DNA from: Deltaproteobacteria bacterium
GTDB taxonomy: Bacteria > BMS3Abin14
Length of the DNA: 64,000 bases
Assembly (NCBI GenBank): GCA_013151915.1
Contig: JAADHJ010000008.1
Span: 1-64,000 of the forward strand
Direction: 5' to 3'
Part shown: positions 13,586-55,793 of the stretch, piece by piece
Layout of the letters: the number at the start of each line of letters is the position of its first letter
Numbering within the stretch: position 1 is the first letter of the stretch
Notes under the pieces: generated by a model
What the model was told of the DNA's origin: nothing
Database searches by the model: none
Seen by the model: the letters and a program-made list of their open reading frames with translations, nothing else
Made by a program: the position numbers and the translations under genes

Positions 13586-13732
13586 CGTTGGACACTGGCC
13601 GTTGGCTGCAAACATATTCTCTACTGTTTTAGGTTGACAACTTGACCGCAGGATTGATAGCTTCTCCTGGATTTGTTAAATTTTTACCAATCATACGAGA
13701 CCTCTCTCAATGGATCATGGAGGATCCTCCGG

Positions 13733-14293
13733 ATGGTTTCTCCCCGGAAAATCAGGGCGCTAATTGTACTCGGAAGGCCTGGTCTTGCAGCATTACTTGT
13801 GCTGCTGGCCATTCTCGCAACCGCTTTTTCCCCTCACGTGACCATGGGGGCCTCCATTAAGGAGGGAGATGTCGCTCCGGTTTTCACCGGGCAGGACCTG
13901 AAGGGAATTTCCCGTAACCTCCAGGATCACATTGGCAAAGATGTCATCATGCTGGACTTCTGGTCCATCTACTGCGTTTCCTGCGTTCAGGAGATGCCCA
14001 AACTGGTGGAACTTCACAGGAAATACAGGGACCGGGGTTTCGTGGCCTTCGGGATCAATCTTGACTCTTTCAGCATCCGGCGCGTAAAGCGGTTTGTCGC
14101 CGGCCTCGATTACGATGTCTCCTATCCCATTATCGTGGACCGTAAGAGAGAGATCGCCGGCGCCTACAAGGTGGGGGTGCTGCCGACAACCATATTCATT
14201 GGGAAAGACGGTAAAGTCAAACTCTTCCATATCGGCTACAAACCCGGCAATGAAAATGAATTTGATGACCTGATTAAAAAACTGCTGAAATAA
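13733..14293 (+). CDS. TlpA/ResA-like thioredoxin, active site CVSC
   Basis: About 187 residues from ATG 13733, which follows GGAGG; an upstream ATG at 13673 would add 20 residues before the signal. It has an N-terminal membrane/signal helix (AALLVLLAILATAFSPHVTM), then the thioredoxin fold with FWSIYCVSCVQEMPKLVE, GINLDSF, and the cis-Pro loop VGVLPTTIFIGKDG. TlpA/ResA proteins reduce periplasmic disulphides, notably cysteines of CXXCH motifs before haem attachment. It is followed 16 bases later by a second TlpA-like gene and faces two multihaem cytochromes on the other strand. Confidence 0.85.
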   Translation: MVSPRKIRALIVLGRPGLAALLVLLAILATAFSPHVTMGASIKEGDVAPVFTGQDLKGISRNLQDHIGKDVIMLDFWSIYCVSCVQEMPKLVELHRKYRDRGFVAFGINLDSFSIRRVKRFVAGLDYDVSYPIIVDRKREIAGAYKVGVLPTTIFIGKDGKVKLFHIGYKPGNENEFDDLIKKLLK

Positions 14294-14309
14294 ACAGGAT
14301 GTTTCAAAA

Positions 14310-14891
14310 ATGATGAAAATGATTCAACCGCCGGGCAGAACACACCTCTTTTCGGCAATGTTCATACTGCTTTCTCTCGCCCTTTTACTGAGCAGCGCCG
14401 CCTTCGCCTCCGACGAGACCGATAAAGTTGCTGAAAGCCGGATCCTGAAGGCAGGAACTAAAGCGCCTGATTTCGAAATCCAGACCATCGATGGAAAACC
14501 TTACCATCTTCAGGATCACATTGGTCGAAAACCCATTCTTCTCTTCTTCTGGTCGTTCTTCTGCGGCCCATGCAGGGAGGAAATGCCATCTTTCCAGAAG
14601 ATCTACTCTGAACTTGGAAAGGATCGTCTGGAATTTGTCGGGGTAAACCTGGACGGGAAGGGCTTGAGTAAAGCCATCGAGAAGTTCCTGGCAAGTTCGA
14701 AAATGGAGTTCGTGCCTCTTTTCGATGAACTGGTCGGGGTAGACTACAAGGTGGCCGATCCCTATGGAATCGCCGGAACGCCAACCGTCTACATTATCGA
14801 CCTGAAAGGAAATATCGCGTTTTCCGCGGTGGGCAGGGTCGAGCCTGACGAGTTGAAAGGGGTCCTGGAGGGTATATTGGCGGGAAGCTGA
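14310..14891 (+). CDS. TlpA/ResA-like thioredoxin, active site CGPC
   Basis: 193 residues with a signal peptide (FILLSLALLLSSAAFAS). Thioredoxin fold: FWSFFCGPCREEMPSFQKIY, then GVNLDGKG, then the cis-Pro loop YGIAGTPTVYIIDLKG. The CGPC dipeptide is that of classical thioredoxin. It is in tandem with the CVSC protein upstream and convergent with the octahaem cytochrome gene six bases away. The likely role is apocytochrome thiol reduction in the periplasm (inference from family and neighbours). Confidence 0.85.
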   Translation: MMKMIQPPGRTHLFSAMFILLSLALLLSSAAFASDETDKVAESRILKAGTKAPDFEIQTIDGKPYHLQDHIGRKPILLFFWSFFCGPCREEMPSFQKIYSELGKDRLEFVGVNLDGKGLSKAIEKFLASSKMEFVPLFDELVGVDYKVADPYGIAGTPTVYIIDLKGNIAFSAVGRVEPDELKGVLEGILAGS

Positions 14892-14896
14892 CTCGC

Positions 14897-16108
14897 CTAT
14901 CGCGCTTTAATTGTTTTAATCCCGGCGCTGATCCACGCTTCATCCTTGTCCTCATGACACCGGGCGCAGGCCTGGGGGACAGTCAGATTTTCCTTTATTG
15001 AAACTTCATTGATATTGAAATTATGGGAACCGGAGGGGGGATTCTGTCCATCCATGTCCGAGTCGTGGCACTCGATACAGGGCATAGCAGGACGGCTGAA
15101 ATCGAACTTGTGGTCGTGGATGCTGTAGCGATCACCGTTGTCCGTCACAGTCGGCACGTGGCAATCCGCGCATTCGGCCTGGGCTTCAGTGTGCATGGAG
15201 TGTTCCTCGTAGGCTGGATAGATCTTCCGGTGGCATGTGCCGCAGTACTCGCTCCTCGACATCATTCGATGCTCTGAAACCGTTATCCCACGGTCGAATC
15301 CGCATATATCGCACGCCCGGTCTGTTGCATAGAACTTTGTCTGCCAGTACATGAACATCCTGTGACGCTCCTTGTACGACATATCACCCCAGTACCAGCC
15401 CTTGGATTTTGGTTTAGGCATAAAGAAGTCCGTATAGTAATCGGTCAGGTCGTCACCGGGTTTGAAACCCACGGGGAAGGGAAAGCTCCGGGTTTTTTTG
15501 TCCTTGCCGTCCGTGTGACATGCTTCGCAGATCATGTCCCGGTGCCGCTTGTCCAGCTTTGCCGGGTTGACAATCAGCGCAGGGTCTCCACCTGCCTCAA
15601 CGTGCTTGCTGCCCGGGCCATGGCACGCTTCGCAGGTGATGGATTCCTCCGCGTAAGAACGCGTTTGCGGGTCAAATCCGACGGCGTGGCAGCCATTGCA
15701 TGTAATGGGGTACGGGTTCTGCTTCCAGTTCCATATGGAATAGGGTTCCCACTTGGCCTCGGCTATGTTCCAGTACTTGGGAAGAACGTAGAATTGCCCT
15801 CCCAGGAGGGTGAGGTATTTCTGAATCCAGTGACTCCCGATGGTGAAGTAGATATCGCTCTTCTTGAAAGGGATGTCCGGACCAAAGCCTGTCGCTTCAA
15901 TAGCGCTTGGGTCCTTGAAAGCGTTGCGGAGCATTCTGGCGTGGGGAGTTTTTTTCCACTGGTTATAGATCTTCTCATGGCACTCTTTGCATGCGGTGGA
16001 GGTCACGTAGTTCTCCAACCCCACCGCCCTGGAAAAAACAGGAAAAATATACTGAAAAGAAAAAAGAATAATAAACAGGCTTAACAGAACCTTACGATTC
16101 GAAATCAC
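14897..16108 (-). CDS. Octahaem c-type cytochrome, cytochrome c554-like
   Basis: 403 residues with a signal peptide. Eight CXXCH haem sites in order: CKECH, CNGCH, CEACH, CEACH, CGTCH, CADCH, CIECH, CARCH. A ninth, non-haem-like CDICG lies between sites four and five. The N-terminal part (TACKECHEKIYNQWKKTPHA, YVLPKYWNIAEAKWEPYSIW) is of the cytochrome c554/c-prime-like superfamily. It is paralogous to the 16825-18033 protein, and the CXXCG is conserved in both. Upstream (16119-16149) are two direct copies of TATTACCATCGATT. Periplasmic electron transfer is likely; the substrate is unknown. Confidence 0.85.
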   Translation of the reverse strand: MISNRKVLLSLFIILFSFQYIFPVFSRAVGLENYVTSTACKECHEKIYNQWKKTPHARMLRNAFKDPSAIEATGFGPDIPFKKSDIYFTIGSHWIQKYLTLLGGQFYVLPKYWNIAEAKWEPYSIWNWKQNPYPITCNGCHAVGFDPQTRSYAEESITCEACHGPGSKHVEAGGDPALIVNPAKLDKRHRDMICEACHTDGKDKKTRSFPFPVGFKPGDDLTDYYTDFFMPKPKSKGWYWGDMSYKERHRMFMYWQTKFYATDRACDICGFDRGITVSEHRMMSRSEYCGTCHRKIYPAYEEHSMHTEAQAECADCHVPTVTDNGDRYSIHDHKFDFSRPAMPCIECHDSDMDGQNPPSGSHNFNINEVSIKENLTVPQACARCHEDKDEAWISAGIKTIKAR

Positions 16109-16118
16109 AACATCCCCT

Positions 16119-16149
16119 TATTACCATCGATTTCCTATTACCATCGATT
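16119..16149. promoter_or_regulatory. Direct repeat upstream of octahaem cytochrome
   Basis: Two perfect copies of TATTACCATCGATT (16119-16132 and 16136-16149), 17 bases start to start, about 10-40 bases before the minus-strand start of the cytochrome gene. Each contains the palindrome ATCGAT. The spacing suggests a paired activator or repressor site, but no regulator could be matched. Confidence 0.4.
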
Positions 16150-16164
16150 CCCCCAACTGTTGGC

Positions 16165-16190
16165 AGGGTCGTAAAAAGTCCATTTCGACT
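16165..16190. repeat. Remnant of modular hairpin repeat (family B)
   Basis: Only the GGGTCGTAAAAAGTCCATTT end of the family B element is present here, next to the stop of the thioredoxin gene. Better copies are at 48341-48500 and 62036-62334. Confidence 0.5.
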
Positions 16191-16192
16191 TT

Positions 16193-16750
16193 CTATTCCG
16201 GCACCTCCTTCACAAGATCGTCGAGGACAAAGGGGACCTCGTTCTCGCCGGGAGGGTAGTCCCCGACATGGGTGTATTTCACGGTGCCGTCAACGCCAAT
16301 GATGACTTTCAGGGGTATGGGCCCAGCCAGCCTGTAGATCTTGGTGGCCACCTTCAGGTCACTGTCAATGAGTACCGGGTAGGGTATTCCCTTTTCCTCG
16401 ACCATTTTTCTGACCTTCGCGGCATCTCCGGTTTCCAGGGCAATGGCGAGAAGTTCGAATCCCTTGTCCTTGTATTTGTTGTAATCCTTGATCAGGGTCG
16501 GGATTTCCTTCTTGCAGATGTCGCACCACGTCGCCCAGAATTCAAGCATCACGACCTTCTTGCCGAAATACCTGGAAAGGGTGATCTCCTCCCCATCCAG
16601 GGATTTCAGGGTAAAGTCCGGGGCCTTCTGCCCGATCTTTACCTTCATGGCCGTACCTTGGGCCTCCGACACCCCTTGAAAACACAGGGTAATACCGGGA
16701 ACAACCAGGAAAAACACCAGTACGACAAGAAACAATTTTCCTCTCTTCAT
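16193..16750 (-). CDS. TlpA/ResA-like thioredoxin, active site CDIC
   Basis: 185 residues with a signal peptide (LFLVVLVFFLVVPGITLCFQ). Thioredoxin fold: MKVKIGQKAPDFTLKSLDGE, FWATWCDICKKEIPTLIKDY, and the cis-Pro loop near GPIPLKVIIGVDGT. It lies between the two c554-like cytochromes on the same strand, so co-expression is likely. The role is probably periplasmic thiol reduction for haem ligation; the unusual acidic CDIC pair may tune the redox potential (inference). Confidence 0.85.
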   Translation of the reverse strand: MKRGKLFLVVLVFFLVVPGITLCFQGVSEAQGTAMKVKIGQKAPDFTLKSLDGEEITLSRYFGKKVVMLEFWATWCDICKKEIPTLIKDYNKYKDKGFELLAIALETGDAAKVRKMVEEKGIPYPVLIDSDLKVATKIYRLAGPIPLKVIIGVDGTVKYTHVGDYPPGENEVPFVLDDLVKEVPE

Positions 16751-16824
16751 CTCAAACCCCCTGCGCGATTCGTAACTCCTTCAGACCTCCCGACAGCAGC
16801 CTGCCGAGTTTATCTTTCATGCTC

Positions 16825-18033
16825 CTAGTGACCCACAATAACGGGTTTTTTCCAGCTATTGATCATATCCAGCGCCCAGTTCTCAGGGTCCGGTTTATCC
16901 GTATGGCATTTTGCGCACGCCTTCTGAATCCTGGGGTCGTAACAGTTCTGTGTATGGACCAGAAAGTAGCTGTAGGAGTGTATATTCCCCGAAAGCCCCT
17001 CGTTCAGGTCCTTACCCCGTTTGACGTGACAGTCGTTGCAGACCAGCTTTACCGTGTCGGGGTGGCGAGTGTGAAGCTGCATCTTTGCCCTGAACTCATG
17101 GCAGCTGAAGCAGAAGTCCATGGTGTCCGGATCCTTCTTTCCGTTGGTCTGCCTTCCACTTATCCCGCACACTTCGCACTTGGCCCTGGAGGAGTGCGTC
17201 ATCTCGTTCTCCCACTCACCGTAAATACGGCTTATGGCCTCTTTAGCCGATTCCCCCTCCTTCATCTCCAGGGGGATGTAATAATCCGCCAGATCTTCCC
17301 CGGGCGTGTACCCGACCGGGAAAAAATACTCACCGGACTTGTCGGTCCCCCTGACATGGCAGGATGCGCAGATCATTTTCCTTCGTTCATCAGTCAATCT
17401 GGAAGGATTGACTATCTTTTCCACATCCCCCCCGCCGGCCACATGAAGCCCCCCCGGGCCATGGCATTCCTCGCAGGACACACCCTCATCCGCGATGGTC
17501 TTCTCCTTGGGATTGTAGTGTGTCGTATGGCAGCCGGCGCAGTATTTGGAGTAGGGCTTCCTCTTCCAGGACCAGACGGAGTAGGGGCGCCACTCCTTTG
17601 ACTGAACGGCCCAGAGCCGGGGAAGAACATAGTACTCCTCCCCGATCTTTTTCATGTACCTCTGATCCCAATGGGACCCGATGGTGTATTCCACTTCATC
17701 CCTGGTGAACGGCAGGTCCTCCAGGCTGAAATCCGCAAGGATGGCGGATGGGTTAGCCTTGACGTCCTGGACCACCGTGCTGTGAAACGTTTCCTTCCAG
17801 CCCGCGTACTTATCCTCATGACACCGGGCACAGGCTTTAGAACCCAGGTAGCGGTTTCCGCCGGGGGCATCGCGGGAGATCGTCATCCCTACATAAGTTC
17901 CGCTGATCCGATTCCCGGCCGCGCCGGCGAAAGGCGCGGTTCCGAGCAGCAGACCCAGGAAGGCTATGGCAACCAGTCTCCACCGGGACGGGTGGATATG
18001 GCGGAGGTCTTTTCTTATTGAAGGTTTTTTCAC
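16825..18033 (-). CDS. Heptahaem c-type cytochrome, cytochrome c554-like
   Basis: 402 residues with a signal peptide (LVAIAFLGLLLGTAPFAGAA). Haem sites: CARCH, CAGCH, CEECH, CASCH, CFSCH, CNDCH, CAKCH. A CEVCG sits between sites four and five, at the same place as CDICG in the paralogue at 14897-16108. Shared stretches include YTIGSHW, YYVLPRLW, PYSVWSWK and MICASCH. It lacks the haem corresponding to CIECH; near that point it has an unpaired QNCYDPRIQ. Periplasmic. It forms a cytochrome-thioredoxin alternation with its neighbours. Confidence 0.85.
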   Translation of the reverse strand: MKKPSIRKDLRHIHPSRWRLVAIAFLGLLLGTAPFAGAAGNRISGTYVGMTISRDAPGGNRYLGSKACARCHEDKYAGWKETFHSTVVQDVKANPSAILADFSLEDLPFTRDEVEYTIGSHWDQRYMKKIGEEYYVLPRLWAVQSKEWRPYSVWSWKRKPYSKYCAGCHTTHYNPKEKTIADEGVSCEECHGPGGLHVAGGGDVEKIVNPSRLTDERRKMICASCHVRGTDKSGEYFFPVGYTPGEDLADYYIPLEMKEGESAKEAISRIYGEWENEMTHSSRAKCEVCGISGRQTNGKKDPDTMDFCFSCHEFRAKMQLHTRHPDTVKLVCNDCHVKRGKDLNEGLSGNIHSYSYFLVHTQNCYDPRIQKACAKCHTDKPDPENWALDMINSWKKPVIVGH

Positions 18034-18063
18034 AGCACCCCCCAGGCCAAAAGAAAGGGGAAA

Positions 18064-18657
18064 CTACTTCAATAGTTCCCCTAATATCCCCCTGACTTCG
18101 GCCGAATCGGAATCGCTGAAACCTATTTTATAATATTGGACGATCCCTTTCCTGTCAACGATAACGGTTACAGGAATGAACCAACTTGTGAAAATCCTCG
18201 TTATCTCCAGCTCCGGATCCACCAGGAGAGTATAGGAAATGGACATCTGTTTTAGCTGCAACCCCCCGCGTATCTCCTCACCATCATGCTGCTCGGTGTT
18301 AACGGCCCAGACAACAAGGCCCAGATCACGGAAATCATGGTAGATACCCTCCAGGGCTTTCATCTCATCAAGGCAGGAACCGCAGTTAACGCCCCACAGA
18401 TCTATGAGGAGAACCTTGCCCCGCATGTCTGTGGAAGAAACATTTTGTCCATCGACGGTAACCCCTGAAAAATCCTTCAAAGGCTTGCCCACAGGGTCCT
18501 CGCCGATGACGAGCTCCGCCATCTCCTTCCTCTTCTGCTCACTCGGATCGGCGTTGAGAATACCCGCCGCGGCCATCTGAAGGGAAATCATCAGAAGCAG
18601 AAGGGTAGCTATGAGCACCCAAGGTCGATATTTACAGGGTCTGGGGTCTTTAAACAT
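18064..18657 (-). CDS. TlpA/ResA-like thioredoxin, active site CGSC
   Basis: 197 residues with a signal helix (WVLIATLLLLMISLQMAAAG). Active site LWGVNCGSCLDEMKALEGIY, then VNTEQHDG, and the cis-Pro region WFIPVTVIVDRKG. It lies 30 bases upstream of the heptahaem cytochrome gene on the same strand and is probably co-transcribed with it. Periplasmic disulphide reductase-like; the partner is inferred to be the apocytochrome. Confidence 0.85.
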   Translation of the reverse strand: MFKDPRPCKYRPWVLIATLLLLMISLQMAAAGILNADPSEQKRKEMAELVIGEDPVGKPLKDFSGVTVDGQNVSSTDMRGKVLLIDLWGVNCGSCLDEMKALEGIYHDFRDLGLVVWAVNTEQHDGEEIRGGLQLKQMSISYTLLVDPELEITRIFTSWFIPVTVIVDRKGIVQYYKIGFSDSDSAEVRGILGELLK

Positions 18658-18696
18658 AGCGACGTTGCTCCCCGAGCCGAAGCAGTCTCGGTATGC

Positions 18697-18870
18697 GGGA
18701 TTGCCGCATCGTCACGCTGTCGGCATGACTCCTCGCAATGACATCGCTCAAAACGGTCTTCTCTGGACTCTGGACTGCCTCACTCCGTTGGACCCTAAGT
18801 TCCAGATACTTCGGCACTTCGATACCCCCATACGCCCCTACGCCCTTACGCCCTTACTGCCAAACACGTC
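18697..18870. repeat. Repeat-rich gap: family A palindrome and short tandem phrases
   Basis: Bases 18697-18743 hold a family A palindrome (GGGATTGCCGCATCG ... CCTCGCAATGACA). It is followed by CTCTGGACTCTGGACTG (18761-18777), then CTTCGGCACTTCGATACCCC and a run of CCCTTACG units near 18831-18860. The gap between the two thioredoxin genes (18658-18950) shows no coding signal. Confidence 0.55.
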
Positions 18871-18950
18871 CCGTCAGGGACAGCACTGCGAAGCCGGCAA
18901 ACCTGCGTTACAAAAAAATGCGGGCGCCGGCCCGCATCATTTTTCCCGGC

Positions 18951-19496
18951 TTATTCGGCCAGAAGCTTCTCGATCAGCGTAACATACTCCCCTTCGATCT
19001 CCGGGGTGTACCCCTCGTGGCGGAACCGAACGGTTCCGTCCCTGGCAATAATGATCGACAGGGGCGCGGCCATCATCTGGAAGACGTCGACCACCTTGAA
19101 CTCGGGGTCAACAATCACGGGGTAGGTGAATTTCGCCGAAAGCTGAGGCATGAACCTCTTAAGGGTTTTACCGTCGACACCATCCGTATTGACGCCCAGG
19201 ATTACCAGACCTTTGCTTCCATACTTGTTATTCAGACGCTCAAGAAAGGGTATTTCCTCGATGCAGTTCTGACAGCGAAGCCCCCAGAAATTTACTAGGA
19301 CCACCGATTTTCCAAGGTAGCCGGCAAGGCTCGTATTGCCTCCGTCGATATCCGTAAAGGTTACGGATGGGGCCTTGGGAAAGCCGGATTCCTTTACGTC
19401 GCCCCTGGAACCCACGCACCCGGCTGCAACGATAAATAAGCCCAACAGCCCAATGAAACCCGCACTTCCGACGCTCAGCCGATACCTTCCCATCAT
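18951..19496 (-). CDS. TlpA-like thioredoxin lipoprotein, active site CQNC
   Basis: 181 residues. The N-terminus has a lipobox IVAAGC at the end of a hydrophobic helix, so this TlpA homologue is probably lipid-anchored rather than soluble. Active site FWGLRCQNCIEEIPFLERL, then GVNTDGVDG, and a cis-Pro loop MMAAPLSIIIARDGT. It is the fifth thioredoxin-fold protein of the 13.7-19.5 kb cluster and the only one with a lipobox. Confidence 0.85.
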   Translation of the reverse strand: MMGRYRLSVGSAGFIGLLGLFIVAAGCVGSRGDVKESGFPKAPSVTFTDIDGGNTSLAGYLGKSVVLVNFWGLRCQNCIEEIPFLERLNNKYGSKGLVILGVNTDGVDGKTLKRFMPQLSAKFTYPVIVDPEFKVVDVFQMMAAPLSIIIARDGTVRFRHEGYTPEIEGEYVTLIEKLLAE

Positions 19497-40214: not shown

Positions 40215-40757
40215 CTACTTCAGTACTGCTGTGATACCGTCAATCACCTGCTGTTCTTTGGAAACCATGAATCCTTTCTGTGACATGAGGATAGTCCCGC
40301 TTTTATCCAGCACGACAAACGCGGGGGTAAAGGAGAAGCCAAAAACGGGGGCGGCGGTAAAGGATGGGTCAAGGAAGTAATCGACCCCAAAATGCCACTT
40401 ATCCTCGTAGCGCTTCACTGAAGCTGCGCCGCCAAGATCAACCGAAACAGAGAAAACATCAAATTTCCCATTCAGGTCGTCCTTAAGACCAACGAGGGAC
40501 CCGAGCTCCGCCTTGCAGGCCGAGCAGGCCGTGTTCATGAACTGTATGATGGTAGGCTTCTTTAACTCCTTAATCAGGTTGACCGTCTTGCCGTCGAGGC
40601 TTTGGACATTGATGGCCTCAACTTTGTCGCCGACCTTGTAGACTTTCACTGGGGCATTGTCGCCATCGGCCAGAGCCGACGAACCAGTGGCCGTCAGGAA
40701 AAATGCGAGAACAATAAAGATGGATAACACCAATATCGACCTTTTCTTTAAGCCCAT
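40215..40757 (-). CDS. TlpA-like thioredoxin, active site CSAC
   Basis: 180 residues with a signal peptide (LVLSIFIVLAFFLTATGSSA). Active site IQFMNTACSACKAELGSLVG, then FDVFSVSVDLGG, and the cis-Pro-region FSFTPAFVVLDKSGT. It lacks the Trp usually before the first Cys. Encoded between the 14-haem cytochrome and PpiC genes, it is a candidate reductase for that cytochrome's CXXCH cysteines. Confidence 0.8.
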   Translation of the reverse strand: MGLKKRSILVLSIFIVLAFFLTATGSSALADGDNAPVKVYKVGDKVEAINVQSLDGKTVNLIKELKKPTIIQFMNTACSACKAELGSLVGLKDDLNGKFDVFSVSVDLGGAASVKRYEDKWHFGVDYFLDPSFTAAPVFGFSFTPAFVVLDKSGTILMSQKGFMVSKEQQVIDGITAVLK

Positions 40758-48588: not shown

Positions 48589-48708
48589 TCAGAGCAGGGT
48601 TGCGTTGAACATGGTTTCGGCCCACTGCCCCTGGGCGATGCCCAAAAAAAGGGCAATGCCCCCCGCGGCAAACAGAATAATTTTCAACAGATCCTTTACA
48701 CTGTTCAT
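48589..48708 (-). CDS. Small single-pass membrane protein (39 aa), translationally coupled
   Basis: An ATG at 48708-48706 overlaps the TGA of the upstream TlpA-TPR gene (ATGA). The 39-residue product opens MNSVKDLLKIILFAAGGIAL, with a hydrophobic helix spanning residues 7-24. It is below usual gene-calling thresholds. The exact overlap with its neighbour is the main evidence; homologues are unknown. It could be a small accessory protein of the cytochrome module or a chance frame. Confidence 0.45.
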   Translation of the reverse strand: MNSVKDLLKIILFAAGGIALFLGIAQGQWAETMFNATLL

Positions 48709-49928
48709 TGGGTGGCCTGTTTTTGCATCATGAGCTTCATCCTCTCCATGGGATCGAGCTTCCTGTGCGATTCAAAGGAAAATCCCAACTGCTTCAGACT
48801 GTCGGTGACGAGGGACGTCAACACCGCTATGGCCTCGCTTATCTTCCCCCCGTCTCTCAGAGGCAGCACCTCGGCCATATCGACCACCGGCTCCACGGCG
48901 ACCTCGTCGGCGTGGAGGTTCTTCTCCCCTGTTGCTCCCAAAGCTGCCTGTGGTTCCTGCCGAGACCCAGCGATGGATTTCGCCTGGCCGGCGGATGCGG
49001 GGGAATCCCCCATGGAATCGGCACCGGCGCCTGAGAGCAGTTCGATACTGTCGTCAAGCCTGTTTTCCTTAAGAAGGAGATGGGCCATCAGAAGACGGGT
49101 CTCGGCCCGCTTGGGATCGAGGCGTAAGGCTTCCTGAAGGAAAGTCATAGCGGCCTCGGCATTCCCTTCCCTGATGCCGGCGTACCCAAGGTAGATGGGC
49201 GGGTCCGGGAAGTGGGTATCGGCCTCGGCGGCCTTCTGGAGTTCCGGGACGGCCTTGGAGGGGAAGCCCTTTTCCATCAGACGCTTCCCCATACCGAAAT
49301 ACAGCATCGCCCGTTTATTCGGCCTGTACCCCGGCGCCTTGACAGCAGCCTCCACCTTTTCCCGGTACAGGCCCAACTCCTTCCGGACAGCCGTGTCGAC
49401 CTCCAGGTAGCCTGCGGTGGGATAACCGGACAGGTCAAAGACAATTGTTCCCGCCCGGTTGATAAGAGCGGTGGTGGGGGTGGCGATGACACCCCACTCG
49501 TTGAAGGTCTTTAGCCCCTTATCCACCAGGACGGGAAAGGAAACCTCTTTTTCATGGACCACCTTTTCGATCCTGGCCAGGTCACCGGCATCCATATGCT
49601 GGTTTTCAACGTTAACAGCCAGGATTTTCAAACCCTTTTCCCCGTACTGTTGGTCCAGTTTGGCCAAGTCATCCAGCTCCTTTAAGGAATGTTCGCTCCA
49701 TGTGGCCCAGAAAAAAACAAGGATGGCGGTAGATTTCCCATAATCCGCAAGGGTGTGGGGATTTCCTTCCAGGTCCTCAACCTTCACGGGAAGCGCCTGG
49801 TCACCGGCTTTCAGGTTCCTGAAAGCGGCCGCGGCTCCAGACACTGAAAACAGGAGAAGCCCAAGCAGGATCGAGGCAACAACAGATCGCGTAAAAAGTC
49901 CGCGCAGATTTCCACTCAACATACGCAC
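48705..49928 (-). CDS. TlpA-like redoxin fused to TPRs; active-site cysteines replaced by Ser
   Basis: 407 residues with a signal peptide (SILLGLLLFSVSGAAA). The N-terminal thioredoxin fold (DQALPVKVEDLEGNPHTLAD, FFWATWSEHSLKELDDL) has WSEHS where WCxxC is expected; the codons are AGC and TCC, so no redox-active pair is present. The cis-Pro loop VIATPTTALINRAGT is kept. C-terminal TPR-like helices follow (RAMLYFGMGKRLMEKGF, IYLGYAGIREGNAEAAMTFL), then a linker rich in Ala and Gly. It may hold rather than reduce apocytochromes. It is paralogous in layout to 50658-51686. Confidence 0.8.
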   Translation of the reverse strand: MRMLSGNLRGLFTRSVVASILLGLLLFSVSGAAAAFRNLKAGDQALPVKVEDLEGNPHTLADYGKSTAILVFFWATWSEHSLKELDDLAKLDQQYGEKGLKILAVNVENQHMDAGDLARIEKVVHEKEVSFPVLVDKGLKTFNEWGVIATPTTALINRAGTIVFDLSGYPTAGYLEVDTAVRKELGLYREKVEAAVKAPGYRPNKRAMLYFGMGKRLMEKGFPSKAVPELQKAAEADTHFPDPPIYLGYAGIREGNAEAAMTFLQEALRLDPKRAETRLLMAHLLLKENRLDDSIELLSGAGADSMGDSPASAGQAKSIAGSRQEPQAALGATGEKNLHADEVAVEPVVDMAEVLPLRDGGKISEAIAVLTSLVTDSLKQLGFSFESHRKLDPMERMKLMMQKQATQ

Positions 49929-49954
49929 ATCTCTCCCGGAGGGGGAAACTTAAA

Positions 49955-50647
49955 TTACAGCAGATGGTACTTTTTGTCCGAACTGTGAGGATCGTGACAC
50001 TTGGTGCATACGGCGTTTCTACGTTTCTCGATATGATTACGGCTCAGGTCCTGGCTGTGGCAGCCTAAGCAGAGTTCCTTGCCGGTTGCCCTGAGAAAGT
50101 ATTTGTTCCGGGATCCATGTGGATCGTGACAAGGGGTGCAGGACCCGGCCGCCACCGGCCCGTGGACGAATTTGCCATTATTAACGGGATCGTGACAATC
50201 CCCACAAAGAGCTTCATCCTCCCTGGCGATGGAATAAACTCCTTTTCCCCCACCCGAATGGCATGTATCACAGGCGGAGGTATCCGTTTCAATGTGATAT
50301 CGGTATCCTTCCTGTTTGCCTATGAAAATCTTCAACTTCAACCGTTCAATGCCCGGAGCGGCCAACGTCAGTTCATGCCTCCCATCCACCAGTTTTAACT
50401 CGTCGACAAGTACGTTCCTGTTGATGGGCACAAACCCGATTGTCTTCCCATTATCGAAGATCTCCGCCATCTTTGCCTCATAGTACCCCTCAACCTCGGC
50501 AATAAGGAGGACCTTGCCGCTCTTCAGGAACACCTCCTCGGCAGGGGCCAGAAGGTGAAACCTGGCGCCGGCGGCATGGACGACCGCAACCGAAAAGGAA
50601 AAAACAAGCAGAACAGCCAGACCCGTTCCACCCACAAAGCTTCTCAT
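49955..50647 (-). CDS. Pentahaem c-type cytochrome with N-terminal beta domain
   Basis: About 230 residues from ATG 50647, which follows GGGGAG. A signal peptide (GLAVLLVFSFSVAVVHAAGA) and a beta-rich domain (FHLLAPAEEVFLKSGKVLLI, GRHELTLAAPGIERLKLKIF) precede five haem sites: CDTCH, CGDCH, CTPCH, CLGCH, CTKCH. The repeated CHDPHGS/CHDPHSS pattern is of the doubled-CXXCH type shared with the 15-site protein at 51711-53009. It is encoded between two TlpA-TPR genes in the same orientation. Confidence 0.85.
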   Translation of the reverse strand: MRSFVGGTGLAVLLVFSFSVAVVHAAGARFHLLAPAEEVFLKSGKVLLIAEVEGYYEAKMAEIFDNGKTIGFVPINRNVLVDELKLVDGRHELTLAAPGIERLKLKIFIGKQEGYRYHIETDTSACDTCHSGGGKGVYSIAREDEALCGDCHDPVNNGKFVHGPVAAGSCTPCHDPHGSRNKYFLRATGKELCLGCHSQDLSRNHIEKRRNAVCTKCHDPHSSDKKYHLL

Positions 50648-50657
50648 GTCATCTCCC

Positions 50658-51686
50658 CTATTTGATTTTCCCTTCCTTCTTGAGCTGCCTGTAAATGGCA
50701 TCCCGGTATGTGATCATGGCCTTCCGGGTTTCCCCCATTTTCTCGTACACCTGCCCCAGCCTGTACAGTGCCAGAGCCGGATCGGGGTTGAGGGCTACAG
50801 CCTTCTGCAGTTGAGCCTCGGCCGCATCGAGATTACCCTCAGATAAGTAAACCGTTCCCAATCCAACATGGGCGTCATGGGATCCGGGGTCTGATTCCAG
50901 TACCTTCTCGAACTCCGCCCTGGCCGCCTGGAAATTCTCTGCCTCGATGTATAACCGGCCTGCGAGAAGCCTCGCACCGGGAAGGGAGGGATCAAGTTCC
51001 AGGGCCTTCAGGAGTTTTGGCAGGGCCTTGCTTCCCATCCTCCTGCTGATAAGAACCCGGGCCATCTGCATTTCCCGCTTGGCTTCCTTGGCCTCAGGGG
51101 TGAGCTCCTGAATCTCGTGCCTCGTCTCGGACTTGGCCATTTCCTCCTCGCTGATCAGGCCCAGAAGGAGCTTGGCCTCGTCCATCAGTGTCCGTTCGAA
51201 GTCGCTTCCGTAGGAGGAATATTCAAAGACGAAGCGTCCCTCCTGATCGATGACGGCCGTGGCGGGGAATATGAAGAGCCCGTACTCCCCGTAGATTTTT
51301 TTCTCCTCGTCAAGGAGTACGGGAAATTTCAGGTCCAGCTTTTTCTTCAGGGACTGAAGACTCCCCAGGCTCTCCTCGTTTTCGGAGATCGCGTAAACGG
51401 AAAGCCCCCTGTCTTTAAGGCTCGCATAGATGTTGGTCAGCCCGTTCAACGCCTTGATGGATCGGTCCTGGACGCCCTTGACGAAACACAGAATGACCAC
51501 TTTGCCCTTCTCGGCGGAAAGGGAGTGGTCCATACCTGCCAGATCCTTCAGCACAAAATCGGGCGGCGTCTCCCCTTTTTTCAGATTCCGGAACGCTGAG
51601 CATATCCCAGGCGGTGAAAGAAAGAAAATCGCCAGGACCATCACCACGGCCATGCGGAGCACGTACCCGGACATTCTGATTCTCAT
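50658..51686 (-). CDS. TlpA-like redoxin fused to TPRs; no CXXC
   Basis: 342 residues with a signal peptide (MAVVMVLAIFFLSPPGICSA). The redoxin fold TPPDFVLKDLAGMDHSL and VVILCFVKGVQDRSIKALNG has Gln and Ser at the two CXXC positions, so it cannot act as a dithiol oxidoreductase. The cis-Pro-like loop LFIFPATAVIDQEG remains. C-terminal TPRs: ARLLAGRLYIEAENFQAARA, AHVGLGTVYLSEGNLDAAEA, ALYRLGQVYEKMGETRKAMI. It shares the AFRNLK start of the mature protein and the layout of 48705-49928. Proposed role: assembly scaffold for neighbouring multihaem proteins. Confidence 0.8.
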   Translation of the reverse strand: MRIRMSGYVLRMAVVMVLAIFFLSPPGICSAFRNLKKGETPPDFVLKDLAGMDHSLSAEKGKVVILCFVKGVQDRSIKALNGLTNIYASLKDRGLSVYAISENEESLGSLQSLKKKLDLKFPVLLDEEKKIYGEYGLFIFPATAVIDQEGRFVFEYSSYGSDFERTLMDEAKLLLGLISEEEMAKSETRHEIQELTPEAKEAKREMQMARVLISRRMGSKALPKLLKALELDPSLPGARLLAGRLYIEAENFQAARAEFEKVLESDPGSHDAHVGLGTVYLSEGNLDAAEAQLQKAVALNPDPALALYRLGQVYEKMGETRKAMITYRDAIYRQLKKEGKIK

Positions 51687-51710: not shown

Positions 51711-53009
51711 TCAGTTGGTTACCGGGTTGATCCTGTCATACCCCTTCGGCTTGTGACAGCCAACCACACATGAGCCGCCGTTCTTGGTCTGTGTGTACTT
51801 GATTGGAAGCATCCACATCTTTCCGAAAGGGACCTCCCTTCGGATGTGTTTTGGCTGATTTCCGGCGTGTACCTCGTGACAGGCCTTGCACGAACGTCCC
51901 TTCTCCCGGTTGACGTGGAGAAAATGGAGGTTCTCGTCGCCGTTTCTAAAACCGGTCAGAGTTGTGGTGTACCGATCGAGGGCGATATCCTTGTTGTGAC
52001 AGTCAAAACACAATGCGTAATTCTTGGTGCTGTACGGCATATAGAACTCGGCGGGGAACGGTTTCTTGAGGATCTTGGTGTAGGGGGACCCATGAGGATT
52101 GTGACAGGCATAACAGTCGTCCTGCCGAACCGGGCCATGGACGTACTTGGCTTTCCTCACCTTCAGCCCCATGGCCTTGTGGCAGGTGTAGCAGATCTTC
52201 TTGGCGGAAGCCCTCAACTGCCTTGGATAATCGGAGGCGTGTGGCGTGTGGCAGACAGTACACTTTTTCTCTTTCAGTGCACCGTGTTTTACCGCGGACT
52301 CCCGGATATACTGTTCCATATCCTTGTGGCACCTGAAACAGAGGTCCTGGCCTTCGGCTTTCAACTGGTACCGAAAATCGCTCGAGTGGGGATCATGACA
52401 GTTGGAGCAATCCTCGGCCGCCGGCTTGTGTTTGTATTTGAGTTCAAACTGCGCCTTCCTGTCCAGATGGCACAGGAAACACAGGTCCGACCCCTGCAAC
52501 TCCAGCAGGTTTTTGTAATCGGACGAGTGCGGATTATGGCAGATATTGCAATCTCCGGCAGCAACGGGCCCATGCACGAACTTCTTGTTGGTCTTGTTGT
52601 TCTCGTGGCAGGAAAAACACAGCGCGCTTATGGTCTCCTTCTTCAGCTGTTTCTCGGCGTTGGACTGGTGCGGATCATGGCAGGCGGTGCATTCCCCCTT
52701 TTTGACGGGGCCATGGACAACTTTACCGGTCTCCTTGGGCTCATGACACAGGTAGCAAAGGGCCTTTCCCTTGGCCGGGAACTTGAAGTCGCTTCCCTTG
52801 GATTTGGTGGGATGTGCGGCTTTTCCCTTGGTATGGCAGATCGTACACTGCCCTACCCCAACCGGGCCGTGAACGAATTTAGCCTTCCCCATGCTGGAAT
52901 GACACTTAGTAGTCACACAGTTATCAGCGTATGCCGTATTCCCATTGATCACGATCAGTCCCAGGGACAGGAAGACCGCAAAGATAAATACCGCCGCCAG
53001 TCGTTTCAT
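51711..53009 (-). CDS. Multihaem cytochrome with 13 CXXCH plus CX4CH and CX3CH sites
   Basis: 432 residues from ATG 53009 (after GGAGGAG); the longer frame to 53222 runs through a repeat. A signal peptide (LAAVFIFAVFLSLGLIVING) is followed by CVTTKCH (CX4CH), then 13 CXXCH (CTICH, CYLCH, CTACH, CFSCH, CNICH, CFLCH, CSNCH, CFRCH, CTVCH, CYTCH, CYACH, CFDCH, CKACH), and a terminal CVVGCH (CX3CH). Repeated units FVHGPV...C..CHDPHSSD alternate with LCFxCH. This doubled-CXXCH architecture is typical of linear multihaem wires. Up to 15 haems are possible if both odd sites are loaded. Confidence 0.85.
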   Translation of the reverse strand: MKRLAAVFIFAVFLSLGLIVINGNTAYADNCVTTKCHSSMGKAKFVHGPVGVGQCTICHTKGKAAHPTKSKGSDFKFPAKGKALCYLCHEPKETGKVVHGPVKKGECTACHDPHQSNAEKQLKKETISALCFSCHENNKTNKKFVHGPVAAGDCNICHNPHSSDYKNLLELQGSDLCFLCHLDRKAQFELKYKHKPAAEDCSNCHDPHSSDFRYQLKAEGQDLCFRCHKDMEQYIRESAVKHGALKEKKCTVCHTPHASDYPRQLRASAKKICYTCHKAMGLKVRKAKYVHGPVRQDDCYACHNPHGSPYTKILKKPFPAEFYMPYSTKNYALCFDCHNKDIALDRYTTTLTGFRNGDENLHFLHVNREKGRSCKACHEVHAGNQPKHIRREVPFGKMWMLPIKYTQTKNGGSCVVGCHKPKGYDRINPVTN

Positions 53010-53511: not shown

Positions 53512-54348
53512 TTACGAGTAGCTGTGCAGACCGGACAGAAGAAAATTGACGCCGAAATAGGTGAAGATCACCGCCGAGAAACCGACGATGGAGAGGACCG
53601 CAGTCCGTGTGCCCTGCCAGCCACGCGTAAAACGGGCATGGAGATAAGCAGCGTAGATGAACCAGGTGATCAGGGACCATGTCTCCTTGGGATCCCAGCT
53701 CCAGTAGGTCCCCCATGCATAGTTGGCCCACGCTGCCCCGGTAATGATCCCCAGGGAAAGGAGTGGAAAACCGACGGCGATGGACTTGTAGTTAACCTCG
53801 TCAAGCATCTTTGATTCTGGAAAGAGGGATACCAGAGAGCCCTCACTGCCCATCCTTTCCGACCTGCGCTTGACCAGATACATTATCGACACACCGAATG
53901 AAACAGCGAATGATCCGTAGGCAACGAAAGAGGTGACAACGTGCGCGATCAGCCAGTTGCTCTGAAGGGCGGGTACCAGGGGTTGGATCTCGTCGGGAAA
54001 CAGCAGGGCGTTGGCCGCCAGGATAACAAAGGCCAGGGGGGAGACAAACGCCCCCACCGCTTTCTGCTTGAACCGGTATTCCACCACCAGGTAGGCGATC
54101 ATGACGCACCACCCGAAAAACCCGAGGGATTCGTACATGTTGGATAGAGGTGCATGGCCGATGCCCATCCGGTAGGATTCGACCCACCGCATGATCATGG
54201 CGCCGGCCTGGGAAACGACACCCAGCCAGACCATCCCCGTGGCCGCATTCCCCACAGCCCGGCCCCTGAATGCAAGGTACCCGACGTAGAAAAAAGTGGC
54301 GAACAGGTAGGCGAAAGTAGCTATGCCGAATAGGGTGGAGCTGCTCAT
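53512..54348 (-). CDS. ccsA: Cytochrome c biogenesis protein CcsA/ResC
   Basis: 278 residues with about eight membrane helices. The tryptophan-rich haem-handling motif WGTYWSWDPKETWSLITW (WWD-type) is intact, and conserved His residues flank it (GHAPLSNMYES, IAHVVTSFVAY). CcsA presents haem for attachment to apocytochromes in System II. It overlaps resB by four bases, as expected for a ResB-CcsA pair. It serves the many multihaem proteins of the window. Confidence 0.9.
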   Translation of the reverse strand: MSSSTLFGIATFAYLFATFFYVGYLAFRGRAVGNAATGMVWLGVVSQAGAMIMRWVESYRMGIGHAPLSNMYESLGFFGWCVMIAYLVVEYRFKQKAVGAFVSPLAFVILAANALLFPDEIQPLVPALQSNWLIAHVVTSFVAYGSFAVSFGVSIMYLVKRRSERMGSEGSLVSLFPESKMLDEVNYKSIAVGFPLLSLGIITGAAWANYAWGTYWSWDPKETWSLITWFIYAAYLHARFTRGWQGTRTAVLSIVGFSAVIFTYFGVNFLLSGLHSYS

Positions 54349-55793
54349 TCTTTATCTCCTATATCCTTCCCACGATCTTTCTTCAACGCCTGTTTCAGGG
54401 CCACCAGCGCTCCGTCGAATTCCTTTTCAAAACTCGCGGGATTTCTGTTGGTGGACCCGGCCATGAGGACAGCTGTATTTTCAGGGTCAAGCTCGACCCT
54501 GAGCCACACCCTCCTGTGGGGGACGAAGAAGGCGATAAACAGGCCCCCTATCATGACGGAAGATGCGATCCATACCAGGGGAACGCCGGGGTCCCACGCA
54601 ACCTGGAGACCCGTGTATTCTCGAATATTTGCATCCCTGATCCTGAAATAGACCTGCCCACCCCGCAGTTTATCCCTGTCGGGTGCGGCCATGGAGATGA
54701 AAAAATCCTGTCTTCCACCTGCCGTGATCCTGCTCATCTGAACGGCAGGACGGCCCCCGATATAGGACGGCAGGATCTGTTGTATCCCATAGGTTGAGGA
54801 ATCCCCAATGACATTAAAGGGCTGTCCCACAGAGACGGTGACGGATGGCGCCGCCACCTTCCCGGAAGGATCAAGGACATCGAAGGTTACTGTGGAACTC
54901 TGGTCAACCCCATAGCTCGACTGATAGAAGTAAATGCCGTCAACAATAAGGGGATGGTTGACCTCGATCCTTTTTCTCTGGACCTCTTTACCATCCCGGA
55001 TAACCACCAGATCGCTGTAGTAATCCTTGGGCTGCCGGGTGCCAGGATAGTAAATCACCTGAAAATCGTCGCAGCGAATGTCAAATGGAAGTTTGACGGC
55101 CGCGTTCCTGCCGCGGAGTGGAACCCTGTTAATGGTCTGGCCCTCAACAATGGACACGAACCCCTTGAATCCAACGGCACCGCCATAAATAGCGCCAATG
55201 GCCAACAGTAAAATGCTCAGGTGGACCACATAGGCTCCCATGCGGCCATACCAGCCCCGATCCACAAAAAAGGTGACAGCCTCCTCGTTACGGTTTTCCG
55301 TGAACTTACCGAAACGGTCGGCCAGAAGATCCCGGATTCTTTCTTCGGCCTCCCCGGGAGAAACACCCCGCCGGACTGATCCGCGGAACTTCATCCGCCT
55401 GAAAAGGCTCTCGTCCAGAACGGCAGGTGATTGGGTCATCAGACGCCACGTCCGGGGAAACCTCTTTATGGAACAGAGGGTGATGTTGACCAGAAGAAGG
55501 GTCAGAAGGGTCAGGAACCACCACGACCGGTACATGTCGTCCAGAGCCAGGGACTGGAATAATCTGTATGCGCCGGGACCATACTCTTTCAAATACTGTT
55601 CCGGCCGGCCGTTCTGAAGAACAACGGTTCCCACGATGGATGTCATCGCCAAGATAATGAGGAGAAAAATGGCGAGGGTCACCGACGCGAGGGAATCGTA
55701 AATCCCTTTAATGAATGATTTTTCGGTGCTTTTGGTTGAAGGTTTTCCGGTACTTTCCCTGGATTTCACTTTTTGCTGGTTTTCGGAGGTCAC
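54345..55793 (-). CDS. resB: Cytochrome c biogenesis protein ResB
   Basis: 482 residues. N-terminal membrane helices (LASVTLAIFLLIILAMTSIV, WWFLTLLTLLLVNITLCSIK) and YVVHLSILLLAIGAIYGGAV, then a large periplasmic part (VEGQTINRVPLRGRNAAVKL, VNHPLIVDGIYFYQSSYG) and a C-terminal helix, as in ResB. With CcsA it forms the System II haem lyase. It is downstream of the tetrahaem cytochrome gene; a GC-rich hairpin lies between them. Confidence 0.9.
   Translation of the reverse strand: MTSENQQKVKSRESTGKPSTKSTEKSFIKGIYDSLASVTLAIFLLIILAMTSIVGTVVLQNGRPEQYLKEYGPGAYRLFQSLALDDMYRSWWFLTLLTLLLVNITLCSIKRFPRTWRLMTQSPAVLDESLFRRMKFRGSVRRGVSPGEAEERIRDLLADRFGKFTENRNEEAVTFFVDRGWYGRMGAYVVHLSILLLAIGAIYGGAVGFKGFVSIVEGQTINRVPLRGRNAAVKLPFDIRCDDFQVIYYPGTRQPKDYYSDLVVIRDGKEVQRKRIEVNHPLIVDGIYFYQSSYGVDQSSTVTFDVLDPSGKVAAPSVTVSVGQPFNVIGDSSTYGIQQILPSYIGGRPAVQMSRITAGGRQDFFISMAAPDRDKLRGGQVYFRIRDANIREYTGLQVAWDPGVPLVWIASSVMIGGLFIAFFVPHRRVWLRVELDPENTAVLMAGSTNRNPASFEKEFDGALVALKQALKKDRGKDIGDKE

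Follow-up and report, generated by a model that had tools for sequence, protein, structure and literature searches.

Two genes in a 64,000-nucleotide stretch of DNA from a Deltaproteobacteria bacterium (assembly GCA_013151915.1, contig JAADHJ010000008.1, positions 1 to 64,000; hereafter the window) encode proteins that join a redoxin domain to tetratricopeptide repeats (TPRs) and alternate with multihaem cytochrome genes. We call them A (48705–49928) and B (50658–51686), both on the minus strand. They have the fold of the redoxin ResA, have lost both active-site cysteines in favour of a conserved replacement motif, are under purifying selection and, as judged from their sequences, are exported; their association with multihaem genes recurs across phyla. 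Redox-dead redoxin-TPR helpers of this kind, located inside multihaem operons, span at least seven phyla (a number that rests on kinship of our genome handles and, for G241, G248 and G359, on family labels), and they probably hold or organise cytochromes rather than act as ordinary redox enzymes.

Protein A is 407 amino acids long and has no cysteine at all, and B has 342 amino acids and two cysteines, which lie in the signal region and in a beta strand. Both match the AhpC-TSA and Redoxin families of Pfam (PF00578/PF08534) well above the cut-off, as well as several TPR families. In the alignment, the site occupied by WCxxC in active redoxins reads WSEHS in A (within WATWSEHS; residues 77–81, positions 49686–49700, minus strand) and VQDRS in B (within FVKGVQDRS; residues 72–76, 51459–51473, minus strand), and neither protein has CXXC. 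The cis-proline loops are kept as ATPTT in A (P151, 49476–49478, minus strand) and FPAT in B (P141, 51264–51266, minus strand). A preliminary description had presented the two as redoxin-fold proteins with a cis-proline and without both active-site cysteines, to which TPRs had been added and which share a mature start AFRNLK, and the open reading frames (ORFs) and Pfam matches bore it out: the mature proteins begin with AFRNLKAGD (A) and AFRNLKKGE (B), and the orthologues fit AF[RK][NK]. Both N-termini are hydrophobic signal sequences that, judged by eye, end in an AXA-like motif, and A and B are predicted to be periplasmic. The AlphaFold2 (AF2) models have a mean predicted local distance difference test score (pLDDT) of 82 for A and 86.7 for B. 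When compared with PDB structures by Foldseek, their best matches were crystal structures of ResA, including the ResA C74A/C77A double mutant, with template modelling (TM) scores normalised to the target of 0.81–0.93.

The phylum of the window is represented by 12 genomes of a single family. Nine of them, three being single-contig genomes (G002, G003 and G009), yielded orthologues of A, B or both, and CXXC was found in none whose site is readable. Both former cysteine positions are invariant serines in A (S78 and S81), and QDRS is invariant among the B orthologues of this phylum. Between the two genomes of the genus, the redoxin domain has a ratio of nonsynonymous to synonymous substitution rates (dN/dS) of 0.13 in A and 0.26 in B, and the respective TPR parts have 0.14 and 0.15. 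Values so far below 1 in the redoxin domain indicate that the cysteine-less domain is maintained by selection. Chance or an assembly artefact was ruled out because orthologues occur in the single-contig genomes too, and pseudogene formation or decay by the selection and the conservation of the motif.

To find fusions elsewhere, we searched with profiles for A and B and for a third family, C. Full-length fusions were found in 25 of the 217 genomes of the large G271 phylum, in the phyla of G158/G296, of G097/G237/G366/G601 and of G320, and in the families of G241, G248 and G359. Among named genomes, four same-phylum orthologues were recovered and the remaining matches were mostly confined to the TPR part. 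We curated a cross-phylum table of 49 fusions, of which 48 lack CXXC and all have the cis-proline; about 40 more fusions from the same searches added no further CXXC, for about 90 read overall. The first cysteine is replaced by serine, glutamine or asparagine in 42 of the 49 and the second by serine in 43, with arginine, lysine or histidine just before the second position in 44 (in the G271 phylum this residue is often asparagine or lysine). These counts show a new, conserved motif at the former active site and not decay. A few homologues retain a single cysteine (GDRC, SERC, LRC), and no multihaem gene lies within 6 kb of the sole fusion that keeps both (CNRC, contig 132 of G366); a search across phyla for CXXC homologues in the multihaem context found none. 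CXXC is present in 19 of the 20 stand-alone redoxins aligned alongside, and the remaining one has a single active-site cysteine (WCSTS; G000:C42, L051:5163–5729). In a redoxin tree built with the motif masked, A-like and B-like groups, both of them multi-phylum, stood apart from the CXXC set with low basal support. Our search of the open literature found no account of cysteine-less redoxin-TPR proteins beside multihaem genes, which is not proof of absence.

On the minus strand of the window the genes follow in the order ResB (CcsB; 54345–55793; PF05140, E 1.9e-103) and CcsA (53512–54348; with the WWD haem-handling motif), which are the subunits of the System II cytochrome c synthase, then a 15-site multihaem cytochrome (51711–53009, likely start 53009; 13 CXXCH, one CX3CH and one CX4CH), B, a pentahaem cytochrome with an N-terminal non-haem, Ig-like region (49955–50647, likely start 50647; 5 CXXCH) and A. 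Measured from refined gene starts, the gaps are 25 bp from the 15-site gene to B, 11 bp from B to the pentahaem gene and 27 bp from there to A, and these four genes are thus packed as one transcription unit would be. The alternation with 5-haem and 15-site cytochromes near ResB/CcsA, as first described, therefore holds.

The unit of 13-haem cytochrome, B, 5-haem cytochrome and A recurs across the home phylum, with a NapH-like 4Fe-4S gene downstream of its A-side end. In G296, from another phylum, the same four genes are found in the same order, again with a NapH-like gene downstream and with the WWD motif of CcsA upstream. Genomes of the G271 phylum have a 13-haem cytochrome, then a TPR-only protein of about 190 amino acids, an A-like fusion, an 8-haem cytochrome, a sensor kinase and a regulator. 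Over 112 residues the TPR-only protein is 31% identical to the TPR part of B, and it matches the CcmH/CycH TPR family PF23914 weakly (38.1 bits, below the cut-off of 42). As the slot of B is occupied there by TPRs only, the redoxin domain is dispensable in that position or was never present, and what these alignments point to as the constant of the slot is the TPR, not redox chemistry. G097, G237, G366 and G601 share yet another order (13/14-haem cytochrome, A-like fusion, 5-haem and 8-haem cytochromes and, further on, a large 14-haem cytochrome), and in G397, G388, G406, G430 and G423 a B-like fusion precedes the genes for a TMEM260-like glycosyltransferase, an NHL propeller and a large multihaem cytochrome. 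The TMEM260-like protein O-mannosyltransferase between the B-like gene and the large cytochrome (L246:9546–11342, with equivalents in L247, L249 and L250) makes glycosylation of that cytochrome a possibility.

A hand count over 55 loci from outside the home phylum gave 43 in which an ORF carrying four or more CXXCH motifs lies within about 6 kb of the fusion. In ten G271-phylum genomes picked solely for holding a fusion, the fusion gene lay at most 1.5 kb from an ORF with at least seven CXXCH in every case (10/10), whereas ORFs carrying four or more CXXCH were near just 2 of 28 sampled stand-alone redoxins. The genome survey proposed in the preliminary description has shown that cysteine-less redoxin-TPR fusions beside multihaem genes recur in several phyla.

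Based on the recurring synteny, the 10/10 against 2/28 comparison, the gene order of G296, the conserved motif, the dN/dS values, the structural match to ResA and the TPR-only slot of the G271 phylum, we favour, at close to an even chance, the view that A and B act in the periplasm as redox-dead ResA-TPR holdases or adaptors for the multihaem (apo)cytochromes encoded in the same operon. Once the protein has been exported, its ResA-like domain, in which the fold and the cis-proline loop are kept and Ser/Gln-x-Arg/Lys-Ser replaces Cys-x-x-Cys, would most likely dock on substrates of the ResA/CcmG type, that is, on unfolded stretches with CXXCH motifs, with no thiol exchange. The TPR groove would grip the cytochrome at a second segment, or else the synthase, in the manner of CcmI and NrfG. 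Held in this way, the many-cysteine apocytochrome could stay unaggregated, oriented and free of wrong disulfides until the haems are attached and the partners assembled, with a hand-over to the synthase. We infer that A and B bind apocytochromes and act before or during haem attachment. The parts of the proposal have precedents. CcmI and NrfG contact the C-terminal helix of apocytochromes through their TPRs, and CcmI also suppresses aggregation (PMC3884852); passages of PMC3601427 and PMC5742617 that cite Turkarslan 2008 and Fabianek 1998 give CcmG a holdase role and describe its cysteines as not essential; and CnoX, a TPR protein with a non-catalytic thioredoxin domain (SXXC), acts as a holdase (PMC6282202). 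More tentatively, the fusions may form an undescribed multi-phylum class of redox-dead ResA-TPR proteins that are dedicated apocytochrome holdases for very-high-haem cytochromes, merging the TPR grip of CcmI with the holdase side of CcmG/ResA, in which the Ser-x-Arg-Ser-type site would take over the substrate or haem-propionate contacts of the lost cysteines.

Several results weigh against a holdase dedicated to cytochromes. The equivalent of ResA Glu80 is present in A (E84) and missing from B and C, which means that conservation does not extend to the whole of the ResA substrate cavity. With its low basal support, the redoxin tree allows either one or two losses of the cysteines. At roughly one in five of the loci outside the home phylum, no multihaem gene lies within about 6 kb, and in the scan of loci for the WWD motif, ResB/CcsA adjacency was seen in the home phylum and G296 only, so that across lineages this linkage is the exception. 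Family C lies directly after dnaK in most home-phylum genomes and has no cytochrome neighbour; the redoxin-TPR architecture is therefore not confined to one client or context, and the fusion family is wider than cytochrome operons. Finally, gene order by itself cannot separate maturation from the assembly of mature cytochromes. The initial proposal of non-catalytic cytochrome-assembly chaperones thus stands as regards proteins that are non-catalytic by their motifs, exported, fused to TPRs, maintained by purifying selection and tied to multihaem operons, while its strictly cytochrome scope is weakened by family C, the loci without a multihaem gene and the rarity of adjacent ResB/CcsA.

A role as scaffold, which we regard as the main and a serious rival, though less probable than the holdase, would place the fusions after maturation: the dead redoxin and the TPR clamp would assemble the mature 15-site and pentahaem cytochromes, perhaps with the NapH-like quinol-side protein, into a periplasmic conduit for electron transfer, or help to orient outer cytochromes. 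The one-to-one alternation of cytochromes and fusions fits such a scaffold as well as it fits the holdase. Genes for an NHL beta-propeller, a sensor kinase and regulator and a large 14-haem cytochrome lie nearby in several lineages, and the TPR and NHL proteins in extracellular-electron-transfer clusters of Dethiobacter have been interpreted as assembly partners (PMC10376724). The window's own genome also has a redoxin fused to an Ig-like region and ten CXXCH (L049:4810–6420), but this protein keeps CSSC and hence is no witness for the cysteine-less class. Maturation is favoured over a scaffold by the ResB/CcsA adjacency, also found in G296, and by the ResA ancestry of the domain, although both roles may hold.

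It is doubtful that the fusions are general periplasmic stress holdases of the CnoX type, of which cytochrome operons merely carry some members. Family C (320 amino acids, one to three copies per genome) has the same architecture, with WNPRS or WSPRS at the former active site; many of its copies end in a PMER(M)(R/K)LLM-like tail, as A does, and it groups near A in the redoxin tree. An exported WNPRS copy is encoded directly downstream of dnaK at G000:C23:41727–42689 (L047:13728–14690, plus strand). Moreover, several fusions of G158, G296, G366 and G601 are not located near multihaem genes. Against a general function stand the strong multihaem enrichment and the conserved position inside the operon, and the dnaK link may be regulatory only, as C has a signal peptide and DnaK is cytoplasmic. 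Decaying or residually catalytic thiol-disulfide reductases with a neutral cysteine loss, which could explain the homologues with one cysteine, the CNRC fusion and the slot of B without a redoxin domain, are highly improbable and strongly disfavoured by the serine, basic residue and cis-proline counts, the low dN/dS and the persistence across phyla.

ResA, TlpA and CcmG (DsbE) are thiol-disulfide oxidoreductases of cytochrome c maturation. A and B resemble them in the redoxin fold, the cis-proline loop, the export signal and, in the home phylum and G296, the ResB/CcsA link, but they have (S/Q/N)-x-(R/K)-S in place of both cysteines, carry C-terminal TPRs and score 81.6 (A) and 71.7 bits (B) against the NCBIfam ResA model, below its cut-off of 170; without CXXC, they are not functional members of this group. 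With CcmI and NrfG of System I they share a periplasmic TPR domain tied to multi-cysteine cytochromes, and the job proposed for them is identical. However, in the Pfam scan their repeats matched general TPR models and not PF23914, and they have a redoxin domain instead of the two-helix membrane part; as the family model is unmatched, they are not members of CcmI. The chaperedoxin CnoX/YbbN likewise has a thioredoxin-superfamily domain with a non-catalytic motif followed by TPRs, and family C, as a dnaK neighbour, recalls its partnership with DnaK. CnoX, in contrast, is a cytoplasmic protein with a thioredoxin domain proper, whereas A and B are exported and match PF00578 and not PF00085 in the Pfam scan, and the E. 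coli protein uses a cysteine where A has none; by domain type and export, they are not CnoX members. The Dethiobacter clusters have TPR proteins among multihaem and NHL genes with an assumed role in assembly, but the passages at hand (PMC10376724) describe neither a redoxin domain nor a cysteine loss. A and B are built from known parts in a new combination.

Multihaem biology has yet to explain how an apoprotein with 30 or more cysteines is kept soluble and unscrambled until its 10–15 haems are in place. A conserved, redox-stripped helper encoded between the cytochrome genes is a concrete and testable candidate for this task, and it could aid the heterologous production of multihaem proteins. 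In addition, the label 'thiol-disulfide oxidoreductase' given to ResA-like proteins in electron-transfer clusters can be wrong.

The same genome contains genuine reductants: an ordinary CXXC redoxin lies in the same region of the window as A and B (40215–40757), and a CPPC redoxin is encoded with System I on contig 51, together with CcmF, CcmB, a CcmC-like protein, an ABC ATPase and a TPR protein. This ccm operon (G000:C51, L050:1286–6985) is found in a genome that also carries System II ResB/CcsA. The natural fusion of a CSSC redoxin, an Ig-like stretch and ten CXXCH has 536 amino acids (G000:C50:9809–11419, plus strand), and its neighbours are an NHL protein, another TlpA-like redoxin and a sensor kinase/regulator pair. 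Between 38312 and 45008 of the window, a PPIC-type prolyl isomerase, the CXXC redoxin, a 783-amino-acid multihaem cytochrome and a beta-propeller-like protein follow one another, and similar gene sets were found beside fusions in other phyla. We make no claim that the large cytochrome forms nanowires: the window protein has a short match to the filament protein OmcE (7tfs, E 2.9e-8), and an OmcE-type match sought in the G397 relative was not found. Elsewhere in the window (13673–19376), five TlpA/AhpC-TSA-type redoxins are encoded on both strands near ORFs with seven to eight CXXCH.

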